DNA from: Pedobacter sp.
Lineage (GTDB): Bacteria; Bacteroidota; Bacteroidia; Sphingobacteriales; Sphingobacteriaceae
Reading direction: 5' to 3'
Assembly (NCBI GenBank): GCA_031119475.1
Contig: JAVHXV010000002.1
Span: forward strand, 1-64,000
DNA length: 64,000 bases
This document shows positions 19,618 through 45,469 of this stretch, piece by piece; positions within the stretch are counted from its first letter, which is position 1, and each line of letters opens with the position of its first letter. The notes below the pieces were generated by a model. That model worked only from the letters and a program-made list of their open reading frames with translations, ran no database searches and was not told where the DNA came from. The translations under genes were made by a program, and so were the position numbers.

Positions 19618-19733
19618 AAACACTTGCGTCAACGATGGAAGCGGCATCCTTTTGGCCAGATCAAACGTATGGATTGAGGTCAAATTCGCCAAAAGATATA
19701 GCGGACAGCGTGTTAAGACGCCCAATCTATTAA
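19618..19733 (-). repeat. Interspersed structured repeat upstream of DUF4180 gene
   Basis: Read on the minus strand, this 116-base segment begins GGGCGT and contains a GCGT/ACGC hairpin, then CGCTATATCTTTTGGC, a long loop, GCCAAAAGGATGCCGC and TTGACGCAAG. CTTTTGGC (19649-19656) and GCCAAAAG (19688-19695) are exact complements. From memory, the CGCTATATCTTTT...AAAAGGATGCCGCT frame recurs between genes across Bacteroidota. The 19588-19911 gap otherwise holds only the promoter of the downstream sigma factor. Confidence 0.6.
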
Positions 19734-39875: not shown

Positions 39876-39921
39876 CGATACAAATAACGTAAAATTTTGG
39901 TTTTTATGATGGCTTGTGGGT

Positions 39922-39950
39922 TGTCATTCCGAACGCAGTGAGGAATCTCT
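39922..39950. repeat. TGTCATTCCGAACGCAGTGAGG interspersed repeat
   Basis: A short motif reading TTGTCATTCCGAACGCAGTG followed by AGGAATCTC. Sequences of this style recur between genes in many Bacteroidota genomes, from memory. It directly precedes the structured array. Confidence 0.5.
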
Positions 39951-39980
39951 GTAGATGTTCGGTAGCAAGTCGAGATCATG

Positions 39981-40313
39981 CCATCCTCCCCCTGCCCCCT
40001 CTGAAGGGGGATAGCGAAGCGCATAAAACTTAACCGTTATGAGGGGCCTGCACTTTGCATGGAAGGCCTTAAAACTTAAGAAGGAAAAATAGTTAATTGT
40101 CCATAGGGCGAATTCTCTCTAGCGTGCATAGCAGGGTGGAGAAGTGAAGCCGAGATCGGCGAACGGCTCAGCCAGCGTAAGGGGACAATTGACGTATTTT
40201 TCAGCACTTAAGATTTGAAGCCTTGATTTCCTGCCTGCCGGCAGGCAGGTTTGGTTACTTTTTCATCAAGGAAAAAGTAATAAACCGCCGCCCGCGAAGG
40301 GCATAAATATATG
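39981..40313. repeat. Structured repeat unit A1 (left of polA)
   Basis: A 333-base unit. In order it can form: hairpin CCCCC-TCTGAA-GGGGG (39996-40011 region); a helix GTTAATTGTCC (40092-40102) with GGACAATTGAC (40183-40193) enclosing a 25-base segment and a branched GC-rich loop; and hairpin TTACTTTTTC (40255-40264) with GAAAAAGTAA (40271-40280); then GCCC-GCGAA-GGGC. It is near-identical to unit A2 at 43741-44099. A 20-bp palindrome is inserted at 40230-40249. Frames in it are not credible genes. Confidence 0.88.
40230..40249. repeat. 20-bp palindrome inserted in unit A1
   Basis: CCTGCCTGCCGGCAGGCAGG is a perfect palindrome. It interrupts a T-run that is continuous in the sister unit A2, so it behaves as a clean insertion. 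Confidence 0.85.
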
Positions 40314-40624
40314 ACCATTCCTCCCCCTGCCCCCTCCCAGAGGGGGATAGCGTGATGCATAGGATTAGCGTTATGAGGGGCCTGCACCATGCAGGGACGG
40401 CCTAGCAGACTTTGGAAGGGAGCATAGTTGATTGTTCAGGGAACCATTCGTTTACGGTAGAGATAGCAGGGCGCAGAAGTGGAGCCGATAGGCGGAACGG
40501 CTTGCCCTGCGTAACCAAACAATCAACGTATGATCCCGACAAAGGATGCAAGCCTTGATCTTTGGCTACCTTTCCATCAAGGGAAAGGTAGGAAAACGCC
40601 GCCGCGAAGGGCATAAAGAATATG
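40314..40624. repeat. Structured repeat unit B1 (left of polA)
   Basis: A 311-base relative of unit A1 following it head-to-tail. The equivalent helices are GTTGATTGTT (40427-40436) with AACAATCAAC (40518-40527), CAGGGC (40467-40472) with GCCCTG (40504-40509), and CTACCTTTCC (40566-40575) with GGAAAGGTAG (40582-40591). Several base pairs differ from A1 on both sides, which preserves pairing. The segment 40437-40462 is unrelated to the equivalent block of unit B2 although flanking bases are almost identical. Confidence 0.88.
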
Positions 40625-40711
40625 ACCATTCCTCCCCTGCCCCCCTCCTCCAAGGGAGCTCCTGTCTAGCCAGCGTGACGAAGGGGGATAGCATGATGCA
40701 TAGAATTAACC
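40625..40711. repeat. Truncated third unit (left array)
   Basis: It starts with the unit opening ACCATTCCTCC and the C-rich/G-rich hairpin (enlarged by an insert between its arms), continues to GCATGATGCATAGAATTAACC, then stops matching. About 155 bases of unique, A/T-rich sequence follow up to polA. Confidence 0.75.
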
Positions 40712-40865
40712 GAGCAACAGGCATTGTAAAACAAGAGAGATTGCTTTGCTTCCTCCCTCGCAACCGCTGCGCTCCTCGCAAAGCGATAAGAAAAAAACTA
40801 CCTAATTCCGATCCGATTATTAACTTTACCAAAATCGGTAAAATCAATTCAATCGGTACATCAAA

Positions 40866-43664
40866 ATGAAAAAATTATTCCTACTCGATGGTATGGCGCT
40901 CATTTACCGCGCACACTTCGCGCTGAGCAAAAACCCCAGGTTTACTTCTACAGGGGTCAATACTTCTGCGGTAATGGGTTTTGCCAACACGCTGCTCGAA
41001 GTACTCCGCAAGGAAAAGCCCAGCCACATTGCCGTCGTTTTTGATACGGATGCACCGACCGAAAGGCACATCGATTTCGAAGCCTACAAGGCTCATCGGG
41101 AGGCGATGCCCGAAGACCTGTCCAAAGCTTTGCCCTACATCTTTAAGCTTATTGAAGGGTTCAACATCCCAGTAATTACGCTTGATGGCTATGAGGCCGA
41201 CGACATTATCGGCACGCTGGCCAAAGAAGGCGAACGCAGGGGATTTGAGGTATACTGCATGACGCCCGATAAGGATTTCGCACAGCTGGTTTCAGAAAAA
41301 ATCTTTATTTACAAGCCTGCACGGATGGGCAACGAAATGGAAATCCTTGGCGTAAAGGAAGTGCTGGCCAAATGGGAAATCGAAAAGGTAGAACAGGTGA
41401 TCGACATCCTTGGCCTTTGGGGCGATGCGGTCGACAATATTCCGGGCATCCCGGGGATTGGCGAAAAGACAGCCAAACTCCTGATCAAACAGTATGGCAG
41501 CATGGAAAACATCATTGCCAACAGCCATGAACTGAAAGGAAAACAACGTGAAAACGTGGAGAACTTTGCCAACCAAGGATTGATTTCCAAAAAACTAGCC
41601 ACCATTATCCTCAATGTACCCATCGAGTTCGATGAAACCAGGCTCATTCTGGAAGAACCCAGTAGGGAACTGTTGGAGCCTTTGTTTGCCGAACTGGAAT
41701 TCAGGACCATTGGCCGACGGGTATTCGGGGAAGATTTCAGTGTAAACGACCCAAATGCCAATGCACAAAAAGACCTCTTCGGAAACGATGTAGCCGCCAA
41801 GGCCAAGACTTTTGTAGAACAGCCCTCTTTATTCGATACCCCGATCGATGCAAAGAACATCAGCAATACGCCGCATGAATATTTTTTGATCGATACGCCC
41901 GAAAAGCGTGCAGAGCTGATCAATCTATTGCTCCAACAACCGAGCATTTCTTTCGATACGGAAACCACGGGTACAGATGCCAACATGGCCGACCTGGTCG
42001 GATTATCATTCTCCATTAAACCGGGCGAAGGCTACTATATTCCAGTGCCCGAAGACCGGGATGCGGCCCAAGCCATCGTAGACGAGTTTAAGGTCGTATG
42101 GGAAAATGAAGCCATTGAAAAAATAGGCCAGAACATTAAATACGACATGCTTGTGCTCAAATGGTATGGTGTAGAGGTGAAAGGGATCTTATTTGATACG
42201 ATGCTGGCACACTATCTGATCGACCCAGATACGCGTCATAACATGGATGTCCTGTCTGAAAACTATTTGGGCTATACACCGATTTCCATCACCACATTGA
42301 TCGGGGCGAAGGGAAAAGGACAGGGAACCATGCGCGATGTCCCGGTAGAAAACGTGGTCGATTATGCCGCAGAAGATGCGGATGTGACGTTACAGCTGGC
42401 CAATGTATTCAGGCCGATGCTTACCGAGCGAAATGCTGCCAAACTGGCCCAAGAGATCGAAAATCCGCTCATCTATGTACTGGCAGACATGGAAAAAGAA
42501 GGTGTCCGGATCGATATCGATACGCTGAACAATTACTCGGCAGAGCTGCAGGAGGAAATCATCAAAGCAGAGCAGCGCGTTTACGATAAAGCCGGACTGA
42601 AATTCAACCTCGCCTCACCAAAGCAATTGGGCGAAGTGCTGTTCGACCACCTGAAGCTCGATCCAAAGGCCAAAAAGACCAAGACCGGACAATACCAGAC
42701 GGGCGAGGATGTGCTGATACAGCTGGCCTCAAAAAGCGACATCGTACAGGATATTTTAGATTTTAGGCAGATGCAGAAGTTGAAATCGACCTATGTCGAC
42801 GCACTTCCGCTGATGGTGAACCCAAAAACCGGAAGGGTGCACACCAGTTTTAATCAGGCGGTTGCCGCTACCGGAAGATTGAGCTCTAACAATCCGAACC
42901 TGCAGAACATCCCGATCAAGACCGAACGGGGACGCGAGGTCAGGAAGGCCTTTATTGCCAGAGATGACGACCACATCTTGCTTTCGGCAGATTATTCGCA
43001 GATCGAACTTCGCATCATCGCAGAAATCAGCAAGGAACAGAACATGCTCGAAGCCTTTGGCAAGGGGATCGACATCCATACGGCAACTGCAGCAAAGGTC
43101 TATGGGGTTGAAATTGATGTGGTAGATTCGACCAAGCGCAGAAATGCGAAAGCGGTAAATTTTGGGATCATTTATGGCCAGAGCGCTTTTGGGCTTTCGC
43201 AGAACCTGAACATCCCGCGCAAGGAAGCCGCAGAAATCATTGAGCAATATTTTAACCAATATCCCGGCATTAAACAGTACATGAGCGATACAATGAATTT
43301 TGCCAGGGAAAATGGCTATGTAGAAACGATCATGGGCAGGAGAAGATACCTGCGCGACATCAATTCTGCAAACCAGACCGTTCGTAGCTATGCCGAACGA
43401 AATGCCATCAATGCCCCGATACAGGGCTCTGCGGCCGATCTGGTGAAGATTGCCATGATCAACATCTATAAGGACATGCAGGCCCAGCACTTACAATCAA
43501 AAATGACCATGCAGGTGCATGATGAGCTTGTTTTTGATGTGATCAGGAGCGAAGTAGAACAGATGAAGACCATCATTACCCATCGCATGAAAACAGCCAT
43601 CCAAACCGAAGTACCGATAGAAATCGAGATCGGTGAAGGGATGACATGGCTGGAAGCGCACTAG
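40866..43664 (+). CDS. polA: DNA polymerase I
   Basis: A 932-residue family A polymerase with all three domains. The 5-prime nuclease is at about 1-290 (KLFLLDGMALIYRAHFAL; DGYEADDIIGTLA). The 3-5-prime exonuclease is at about 345-520, with the Asp-x-Glu motif SFDTETTG near 362. The polymerase is at about 560-932: motif A SADYSQIELR near 707, motif B RRNAKAVNFGIIYG, motif C QVHDELVFD near 884. The exonuclease acidic residues look intact, so proofreading is likely. It is bracketed by direct copies of a structured repeat array, an unusual setting for this gene. Confidence 0.96.
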   Translation: MKKLFLLDGMALIYRAHFALSKNPRFTSTGVNTSAVMGFANTLLEVLRKEKPSHIAVVFDTDAPTERHIDFEAYKAHREAMPEDLSKALPYIFKLIEGFNIPVITLDGYEADDIIGTLAKEGERRGFEVYCMTPDKDFAQLVSEKIFIYKPARMGNEMEILGVKEVLAKWEIEKVEQVIDILGLWGDAVDNIPGIPGIGEKTAKLLIKQYGSMENIIANSHELKGKQRENVENFANQGLISKKLATIILNVPIEFDETRLILEEPSRELLEPLFAELEFRTIGRRVFGEDFSVNDPNANAQKDLFGNDVAAKAKTFVEQPSLFDTPIDAKNISNTPHEYFLIDTPEKRAELINLLLQQPSISFDTETTGTDANMADLVGLSFSIKPGEGYYIPVPEDRDAAQAIVDEFKVVWENEAIEKIGQNIKYDMLVLKWYGVEVKGILFDTMLAHYLIDPDTRHNMDVLSENYLGYTPISITTLIGAKGKGQGTMRDVPVENVVDYAAEDADVTLQLANVFRPMLTERNAAKLAQEIENPLIYVLADMEKEGVRIDIDTLNNYSAELQEEIIKAEQRVYDKAGLKFNLASPKQLGEVLFDHLKLDPKAKKTKTGQYQTGEDVLIQLASKSDIVQDILDFRQMQKLKSTYVDALPLMVNPKTGRVHTSFNQAVAATGRLSSNNPNLQNIPIKTERGREVRKAFIARDDDHILLSADYSQIELRIIAEISKEQNMLEAFGKGIDIHTATAAKVYGVEIDVVDSTKRRNAKAVNFGIIYGQSAFGLSQNLNIPRKEAAEIIEQYFNQYPGIKQYMSDTMNFARENGYVETIMGRRRYLRDINSANQTVRSYAERNAINAPIQGSAADLVKIAMINIYKDMQAQHLQSKMTMQVHDELVFDVIRSEVEQMKTIITHRMKTAIQTEVPIEIEIGEGMTWLEAH

Positions 43665-43740
43665 GGTTGAAAGTTATGCCAAAGGCATCCCTTTGGGAAA
43701 GGTTGAAAGGTTAAAAGATTGGTAACCAAAGAGGAATGAC

Positions 43741-44099
43741 AACCATCCTCCCCCTGCCCTCTCCTCCAAAGGAGTCCTCCAAGGGAGCTCCTGCGGAGCC
43801 TGCGGGACAAAGGGGGATAGCGAAGCGCATAGAACTTAACCATTATGAGGGGCCAGCACCATACAGGGACGGCCTTAAATCTTAAGAAGGAAAAATAGTT
43901 AATTGTCCCTAGGGCGAATTCTCTCTAGCGTGCATAGCAGGGTGGAGAAGTGAAGCCGAGATCGGCGAACGGCTCAGCCTGCGTAAGAGGACAATTGACG
44001 TATTTTTCAGCACTTAAGATTTGAAGCCTTGATTTTTTGGTTACTTTTTCATCAAGGAAAAAGTAATAAACCGCCGCCCGCGAAGGGCAGAAAGATATC
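43741..44099. repeat. Structured repeat unit A2 (right of polA)
   Basis: The second A-type unit, in the same orientation as A1. The first hairpin carries an extra GC-rich insert between its C-rich and G-rich arms (about 43760-43808). The helix, the 25-base enclosed segment (one base differs from A1) and the terminal TTACTTTTTC/GAAAAAGTAA hairpin are conserved. The site of the 20-bp palindrome is empty here (GATTTTTTGG). Confidence 0.88.
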
Positions 44100-44434
44100 G
44101 CCATCCTCCCCCCTGCCCCCTCCCAGAGGGGGATAGCGAAGCGCATAGAACTTAACCATGATGAGGGTTCTGCACCATGCAGGGACGGCCTAGCAGACTT
44201 TGGAGAGGAGCATAGTTGATTGTTCTATGAGATCATTCTCATTTAAGCAAATAGCAGGGCGCAGAAGTGGAGCCGATAGGCGGAACGGCTTGCCCTGCGT
44301 AACCAAACAATCAACGTATGATCCCGACAAAGGATGCAAGCCTTGATCTCCTGCCTGCCGGCAGGCAGGTTTGGCTACCTTTCCATCAAGACAAAAGAAC
44401 GAAACCGCCGCCCGCGCAGGGCATAAAGAACATG
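44100..44434. repeat. Structured repeat unit B2 (right of polA)
   Basis: The second B-type unit. Bases 44251-44348 are identical to 40463-40560 of B1, and the 50 bases before the variable block differ at only two positions. The block 44225-44250 shares essentially no more than chance identity with its B1 counterpart. It contains a small dyad, ATGAG/CTCAT. The 20-bp palindrome is inserted at 44350-44369, and the last hairpin is partly lost. Confidence 0.88.
44350..44369. repeat. 20-bp palindrome inserted in unit B2
   Basis: A second exact copy of CCTGCCTGCCGGCAGGCAGG at the position equivalent to the one in A1. It is absent from B1. Confidence 0.85.
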
Positions 44435-44487
44435 ACCATACCTCCCTCCCTGCCCCCTCCAAAGGGGGATAGCGTGGTGCCTAAGCC
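44435..44487. repeat. Truncated third unit (right array)
   Basis: It opens like the other units (CCTGCCCCCTCC-AAA-GGGGGATAGCG) and then diverges after about 50 bases. Unique leader sequence of the TonB/MORN gene follows. Confidence 0.7.
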
Positions 44488-44599
44488 AAACCTCAATATA
44501 GCCTCCCTGCAAATTCATCTTAAATTTCTCATTGTACACAAATTTCAGTTAAATTACACTGGTTTAACCAGAACAACCGTTATCCTTAAAAATCATTAC

Positions 44600-45469
44600 A
44601 TGTTAAAGAAATATTTCCTGCTTGCCTGCTGCGTATGTCTGTCCATCTGGGCCGATGCGCAACAAGATACTACCTTGGTCTACGCCAGACGCGGTATAGA
44701 AAAAGATCCCATCCGCTCCAAGCTGAAAAAGGACGTCGTAAAGAAAGATAGTTTGTGGACCGTAAACCTCAGCACCAAAAAAGGTAAACTCCAAGAGACC
44801 ATTTCCTTTGCTGATGAAGAACTGAGCGTCCGTAAGGGGCCCTATGCGCTGTATAACGAAGAAAGTCAGCTCGTAGAAACGGGCAATTACAACCGTGGCT
44901 ATAAGATTGGTCCATGGACCAGCTATTATCCAAACCAGAAGCCCTCCGTTAAATCTACCTATAGCTGGGGCAAGCTCACGGGCATCTTCCAAAAGTTTTG
45001 GGACAACGGACAGTTGAAAGAAGAAGTGAACTATGCGAACGGCAAAAAATCTGGCGACCGCAACATGTACTATCGTGACGGGAAACAGGCCCTCAAAGAA
45101 TTCTACGAAGCTGATAAAAAAATTACAGGAACTTATTTTGATCAGGAGGGGAAGACCACCAGTAGCCTAAAGATCATCCAGCCACCTAAATTTCCGGGAG
45201 GAACGGAAGCTTTCTACGATTTCTTAAGGAAAGAAATCAAATATCCACCTAATGCACAGAAAAACAATGTTTCGGGTACGGTCAAGTTATCGTTTACGGT
45301 CATGAAAAACGGACGCATCGATAACATCAAAGTAATTGACAGCCCAGATGAAGAGCTGACCCGCGAGGCCATCCGCGTGCTGCGCTATAACATGGAATGG
45401 TTACCAGGCCTCGAACTTGGCGAACCTGTTGAGATGAAGCATACGGTGCCGATCAAGTTTTCACTGTAA
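44600..45469 (+). CDS. TonB C-terminal domain protein with MORN-like repeats
   Basis: A 289-residue exported protein (signal to about residue 22, ADAQ). The middle holds three or four MORN_2-like repeats (GNYNRGYKIGPWTSYYPNQK, GIFQKFWDNGQLKEEVNYANGKKSG). The end is a TonB C-terminal domain (about 205-289: PKFPGGTEAFYDFLRKEIKY, GTVKLSFTVMKNGRIDNIKV, MEWLPGLELGEPVEM). It lacks the N-terminal Pro-rich periplasm-spanning arm of classic TonB. The frame extends upstream through the repeat array, but the signal peptide fixes the start at 44600. Confidence 0.83.
   Translation: MLKKYFLLACCVCLSIWADAQQDTTLVYARRGIEKDPIRSKLKKDVVKKDSLWTVNLSTKKGKLQETISFADEELSVRKGPYALYNEESQLVETGNYNRGYKIGPWTSYYPNQKPSVKSTYSWGKLTGIFQKFWDNGQLKEEVNYANGKKSGDRNMYYRDGKQALKEFYEADKKITGTYFDQEGKTTSSLKIIQPPKFPGGTEAFYDFLRKEIKYPPNAQKNNVSGTVKLSFTVMKNGRIDNIKVIDSPDEELTREAIRVLRYNMEWLPGLELGEPVEMKHTVPIKFSL

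Follow-up and report, generated by a model that had tools for sequence, protein, structure and literature searches.

Two candidate Bacteroidetes RNAs, Pedo-repair (RF01715) and Flavo-1 (RF01705), are named in a table of an earlier study (PMC2864571); both are structured, non-coding and found in Pedobacter and its relatives. Repetitive extragenic palindromes (REP) and bacterial interspersed mosaic elements (BIME) are dispersed extragenic hairpins that often occur in pairs or clusters and are linked with REP-associated tyrosine transposases (RAYT), and RAYT-like genes are also present in the genus Pedobacter. Integron attC sites, whose R boxes read RYYYAAC..GTTRRRY, are imperfect hairpins that are recognised by their fold, contain extrahelical bases and vary at the tip, and the ERIC, Correia and stem-loop sequence families are repeated, foldable and intergenic. 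The repeat unit described here shares features with each of these systems, though not the R boxes of attC. We analysed it in a window of 64,000 nucleotides (nt) of a Pedobacter sp. genome (GCA_031119475.1, contig JAVHXV010000002.1, positions 1 to 64,000), in which it stands as two A-B pairs, A1-B1 and A2-B2, on either side of polA. Its most variable part is a block of 25 or 26 nt, which differs at most positions between B1 and B2. With a probability of roughly one half, we regard this block as the least-constrained junction loop of a structured repeat family, overwritten once in the B1/B2 pair by an unrelated sequence of the same length.

The block contrast between the two A-B pairs

A typical unit starts with a leader and GGCCT and continues with an outer stem and P1, the variable block, the P3 hairpin, the P1 return strand with a bulged G, and AGCC; after AGCC follow GCCTTGAT and a hairpin such as TTACTTTTTCATCAAGGAAAAAGTAA. 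According to the fold, the block forms the 5' strand of the P1/P3 junction and is mostly unpaired, and the opposite 3' strand measures about 7 nt. A first-pass annotation, made from the letters of the sequence, had described a hypervariable block at a fixed position within otherwise near-identical B units, and our recount reproduced its coordinates and lengths. The block spans 26 nt in both B1 and B2 and revealed 20 mismatches without a gap, i.e., near-chance identity. The 98 nt on its 3' side (40463-40560 in B1, 44251-44348 in B2) are identical and the 50 nt on its 5' side differ at two positions, as had been claimed. Likewise, the A units, which belong to the same duplication, carry a 25-nt block at the same place with a single difference. 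Around the block, the reported arms GTTGATTGTT/AACAATCAAC were present, as was the conserved ATAGCAGGG, and all four blocks contain ATTC. A stem ATGAG/CTCAT, also suggested at that stage, forms a clear hairpin in B2, while the other three units of the window displayed no clear one.

Global alignment of the two pairs gave mismatch counts of 10/77 for the A leader and 14/65 for the A-B spacer. Stem parts differed at 7 of 298 positions compared with 24 of 142 for leader plus spacer (p 1e-7), and are thus constrained. The A block (1/25) and the B block (20/26) differed strongly from each other (Fisher p 6e-8), and the B block also exceeded the spacer rate (binomial p 3e-9), where the region limits of all these contrasts were chosen after the alignment had been seen. 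Chance is excluded as the source of the B1/B2 difference, and the block of this one pair was either replaced or diverged beyond what ordinary drift explains. In a survey of 88 unit pairs with at least 85% identity over at least 140 columns, drawn from 83 units, seven pairs revealed a localised window of low identity, five of these at the block, while none of 20 pairs with at least 95% identity did. A sharp block edge is therefore mainly a property of the B1/B2 pair, which represents the extreme case.

A 20-nt palindrome, CCTGCCTGCCGGCAGGCAGG, was found at 40230-40249 (A1) and 44350-44369 (B2), at the same point of the 3' module (CTTGAT/TTTGG), and not in the 3' module of A2 or B1, so that its gain or loss was independent of the A-B duplication.

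Fold, variability and distribution of the unit family

Native arms pair at a mean of -33.8 kcal/mol compared with -18.1 kcal/mol for arms swapped among 20 arm-sequence clusters, and the native arm was the best partner in 16 of the 20 clusters (78 of the 83 units used). In alignment A4, both partners had changed in 22 of 25 pairs, and each of the five measures lay above 500 of 500 shuffles; since A4 was fitted to the structure, the arm-swap test is the more independent of the two. Single units folded better than all 200 of their shuffles, while the minimum-energy folds of A1 and A2 pair the P3 region otherwise than the model does. Covarying helices fit a structured RNA, and are also expected of a functional DNA hairpin. 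Concerning covariation as a sign of a structural loop, as the first-pass annotation had put it, the stems indeed covary, but a block hairpin occurs in some copies only and none is common to all. Of 36 copies, 29 have a T.G pair in P1, and farther outward in the stem, 27 of 68 distinct arms show a G.A mismatch, in two contexts. Counting wobbles over the stems of 36 A4 copies resulted in 46 G.T and 13 A.C, with 29 of the 46 G.T at one position. The inner loop of P3, which we read as rich in G.A, and the conserved T.G pair lean towards RNA, though weakly (see below).

Mean pairwise difference was 0.437 for the block, 0.408 for the short junction strand opposite, 0.290 for P3, and 0.217 and 0.235 for the P1 arms, based on 34 non-redundant copies (34 of the 48 A4 rows, after removal of partial rows, L037, L038, two truncated L061 copies, and near-duplicates). 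The block is hence the most variable region, though hardly above the opposite junction strand. Its per-column diversity, a measure that the first-pass annotation had proposed, is graded, with two fast lobes on either side of a slower CTCTCTAG-like core; B1, B2, and several other copies are without this core. Where three units form a tandem array in another genome, their blocks differ through scattered substitutions and small indels. The block is thus a real hotspot of change, generally a graded one, and its rank of variability, the CTCTCTAG motif, and its identity in an orthologous pair (see below) point to a weakly constrained junction loop and in general to no sharp-edged cassette.

These results divide the claims of the first-pass annotation. 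Its constant structured scaffold was borne out, with conserved stems and one fixed place in the junction where change is concentrated. Replacement of one segment applies to B1/B2, where it goes beyond drift, but not to the family, in which the hotspot is in general graded. Further copies, in which gradual divergence across the entire unit would have spoken against a sharp-edged block, revealed this graded hotspot, and the localised windows of low identity lie at the block in five of seven cases. The freely drifting loop, offered as a weaker alternative, describes the family as a whole but not the B1/B2 jump.

In the window's genome, four copies of this unit type were found, all around polA. 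Covariance model R2 matched 43 times within the genus, in 11 of 145 genomes, one of them the window's own, while the earlier model R1 matched 5 of 301 genomes of the host's taxonomic family, every one of them from Pedobacter (1 of 25 genera). Among named records, the exact 19-base arm occurred in Pedobacter polaris, P. frigiditerrae, and one Pedobacter metagenome-assembled genome (MAG). A search with the 3' module alone hit 13 of 26 genomes, from 5 of 11 genera, whereas its reversed control gave no match; units of the same layout but with other letters stand upstream of its matches, and other genera of the class have divergent relatives that are laid out alike. The units of the window, A and B alike, belong to one family of structured intergenic repeats that Pedobacter shares with its relatives; tandem groups of it adjoin genes such as polA, nhaA, and porV. 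Blastn against plasmids and phages with A1-B1 resulted in no match, nor did scans of IMG/VR with the 3' arm of the unit or with the 3' module.

Some further copies were observed in passing. Contig C7 of the window's genome (locus L106) harbors two very divergent units of the wider family in tandem. The gap between porP/sprF and nhaA contains one, two, and four units in three species (L100, L101, L109), which belong to two alternating subtypes. Some units (L045/L029, also L022, L026, L054, L055, and L057) carry an inserted module of about 50 nt in their P3 loop (GCAATCTTGAGGGCAAAAACAAAACTAC...CCGAAAAACT), which is not present in the orthologous P. frigiditerrae unit (L062, compared with L045/L029); this module was also seen within the 3' hairpin of a unit of genome G324 in L048.

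Table 1. Coordinates of the repeat units, their parts, and polA in the window
Feature	Positions	Strand	Basis or remark
Unit A1, GGCCT to AGCC, long imperfect hairpin around P1, block, and P3	40065..40222	+	fold z-score -6.7 for 40055-40315
Variable block of A1, 5' strand of P1/P3 junction	40103..40127	+	alignment
P3 hairpin of A1	40131..40176	+	alignment to models R1/R2; minimum-energy fold pairs this region differently
3' hairpin module of A1, GCCTTGAT...ATCAAGG, broken by 20-nt palindrome	40220..40281	+	
Unit B1, GGCCT to AGCC, long imperfect hairpin	40399..40554	+	fold z-score -5.5 for 40385-40605
P1 5' arm of B1	40424..40436	+	pairs with 40518-40531 around bulged G at 40528
Variable block of B1	40437..40462	+	
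P3 hairpin of B1, internal loop GAAGTGGA/GGAACGG	40466..40510	+	fold
P1 3' arm of B1	40518..40531	+	fold
3' hairpin module of B1	40552..40591	+	
polA, A-B pair on each side, outside the element	40866..43664	+	
Unit A2	43871..44028	+	alignment
Variable block of A2, 1/25 different from A1	43909..43933	+	alignment
Unit B2	44187..44342	+	alignment
Variable block of B2, 20/26 different from B1, small ATGAG/CTCAT hairpin inside	44225..44250	+	alignment and fold
P3 hairpin of B2, identical to B1 P3	44254..44298	+	alignment and fold

Explanations for the block and for the unit

As we picture the unit, the long imperfect hairpin of outer stem and P1 would open into an asymmetric junction and end in P3, to be followed by the conserved 3' hairpin module. 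The folded molecule would be either plus-strand RNA or single-stranded DNA. The block would act as a passive, mostly unpaired 5' junction strand, in B2 with a small optional hairpin, and its letters would be dispensable for the fold and weakly held by a preference for CTCTCTAG, for which reason it would change fastest. The block of one B copy may then have been overwritten in a seemingly single event that left the stems intact, e.g., when it recombined with a diverged copy or was converted by one.

Several observations weigh against this explanation. CTCTCTAG or close variants are kept in the block of most copies, the A1/A2 block is as conserved as the stems, and orthologous units of P. frigiditerrae and a MAG are identical at 32 of 32 block positions, in a pair of which one member carries an insert of about 50 nt in its P3 loop; the block is thus not free in every copy. 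A jump like that of B1/B2, at exactly equal length, is not what drift or weak constraint alone would predict, and a donor for either B block was not found in the window's own genome. As to the nature of the molecule, distinct contexts outside the one conserved T.G position revealed 7 G.T and 5 A.C (p 0.77), and without an excess of G.T over A.C there, the stems favour RNA over DNA only weakly.

The next most probable explanation, though clearly behind the overwritten junction loop, holds that the block is a stem-loop or loop drifting at a neutral rate and that B1/B2 merely collected more changes than other copies. The graded column diversity with its fast lobes and slower core, and the scattered substitutions and small indels of the tandem array, are what it would predict. 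It fails to explain that the B block exceeds both the spacer and the A block in mismatches, that pairs of at least 95% identity displayed no similar jump, and that no block hairpin is common to all copies.

The main rival for the entire unit is a mobile DNA hairpin. In this view, which we consider unlikely, the unit would be single-stranded DNA similar to REP, a Y1 (RAYT-like) transposase would move it in trans, and the block would be a tolerated apical part. Copies are scattered, their number varies at one locus, and their dimers and clusters resemble the organisation of REP (PMC3733652). Matches to Y1_Tnp were found in 12 of 12 unit-bearing genomes compared with 3 of 8 taken as unit-free, five of the latter eight having been checked with narrow models only; the window's own genome has three such matches. 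However, the flanks of 20 Y1 genes, taken to about 3 kb each way, contained no detected unit, in a search whose module pattern finds just two of the four window units and whose model R2 covers the narrow type only. By eye, other short palindromes stand beside at least 10 of these 20 genes, and the units are about ten times as long as a REP. RAYT transposases are thus unlikely as the movers of the units. The sites themselves were also compared between genomes. An intergenic region with two units in genome G125 has none in G317, and another, which holds a unit in G343, is unit-free in G317 as well as G125; neither comparison revealed a clean insertion edge or a duplicated target. One more flank query matched none of three genomes, and the gene downstream in the window itself had no DNA match in 40 other genomes. 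As a separate observation, the Pedobacter RAYT-like Y1 genes (L110-L129) are often flanked by short palindromes of their own, which differ from gene to gene.

A still less probable explanation takes the block for a recognition segment, i.e., a guide, antisense seed, or target-binding loop on a constant RNA scaffold, exchanged between copies for retargeting. Its fixed position, the constant scaffold, and the equal length in B1 and B2 suit this idea, as does divergence centred on the block in other same-genome pairs (the L056 pair, L098:14087/L099:11836 in G338, and L049/L048 in G324). Forward matches between block and flanks were also slightly longer than expected for 44 blocks (longest match 8.82 on average compared with 8.46 in shuffles; 5 of 44 at p <= 0.05). 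In the reverse-complement orientation, no such excess was seen (8.50 compared with 8.40; 1 of 44 at p <= 0.05). With up to three mismatches, the 21-base core of the B1 block has no second place in its own genome, and that of B2 revealed its single copy plus one place with three mismatches. As exact 20-mers, neither block occurs in IMG/VR, and blastn against phages gave E values of 2 or worse. Moreover, most copies share the block motif, and tandem and orthologous copies carry similar blocks. Two individual matches of the B1 block were taken as chance, namely an 11-nt forward match within 3 kb (p 0.017; p 0.20 for the whole window) and a reverse-complement match to the whole window (p 0.07). 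A guide, a target-recognition loop, or programmed diversity, as first proposed for the block, is therefore not supported by the own genome, IMG/VR, phage collections, or flanks, where the search of the blocks that had been suggested returned nothing convincing as a guide target; short seeds or other targets lie beyond the reach of these tests. It is likewise improbable that an undescribed, class-wide RNA family of the Bacteroidota displays its junction segment as a copy-specific recognition sequence on a constant scaffold and occasionally swaps it whole, as B1/B2 would then exemplify.

That the B1 block is an inverted copy of the ancestral block is the least probable explanation of all, since the adjoining P3 is not inverted, no inverted repeats were seen flanking the block, and the closer similarity of its reverse complement than of its forward strand to the family blocks (shuffle p 0.013 compared with 0.217) fails correction for the 22 tests made, though an inversion would preserve length.

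Comparison with known systems

At gathering threshold, a search of the whole window and 13 loci against Rfam 15 revealed only Flavo-1, outside the units, and permissive thresholds applied to the region 39900-44600 and 12 loci gave nothing that reached a gathering score. The Flavo-1 matches are located at 19623-19719 of the window and, elsewhere, near two units (L014:1322-1409 and L013:315-410). No publication describing the units was found in the literature searched, in which subscription journals were thinly covered, and the family is apparently undescribed in the literature as well as in Rfam 15. It deserves more attention than the block: if RNA, it would be a new non-coding RNA family, and if a DNA hairpin, a new repeat with a mover yet to be named.

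Though Pedo-repair and Flavo-1 share host range and structured character with the units, their models match no unit searched, and the long covarying stem, P3, and 3' GCCTTGAT hairpin of the units represent another design. In comparison with REP and BIME, the units measure 150-330 nt, contain an inner junction and P3, and were not found beside the RAYT-like genes examined. The attC R boxes, read on both strands, are not there at the stem ends; instead, unit arms begin with GTT on the 5' side and end with GAC on the 3' side, and the neighbours include chromosomal genes such as polA and nhaA. Finally, what sets the units apart from ERIC, Correia, and the stem-loop sequence families is that their arms, in 20 clusters, vary yet remain complementary, and that specific mismatches recur.

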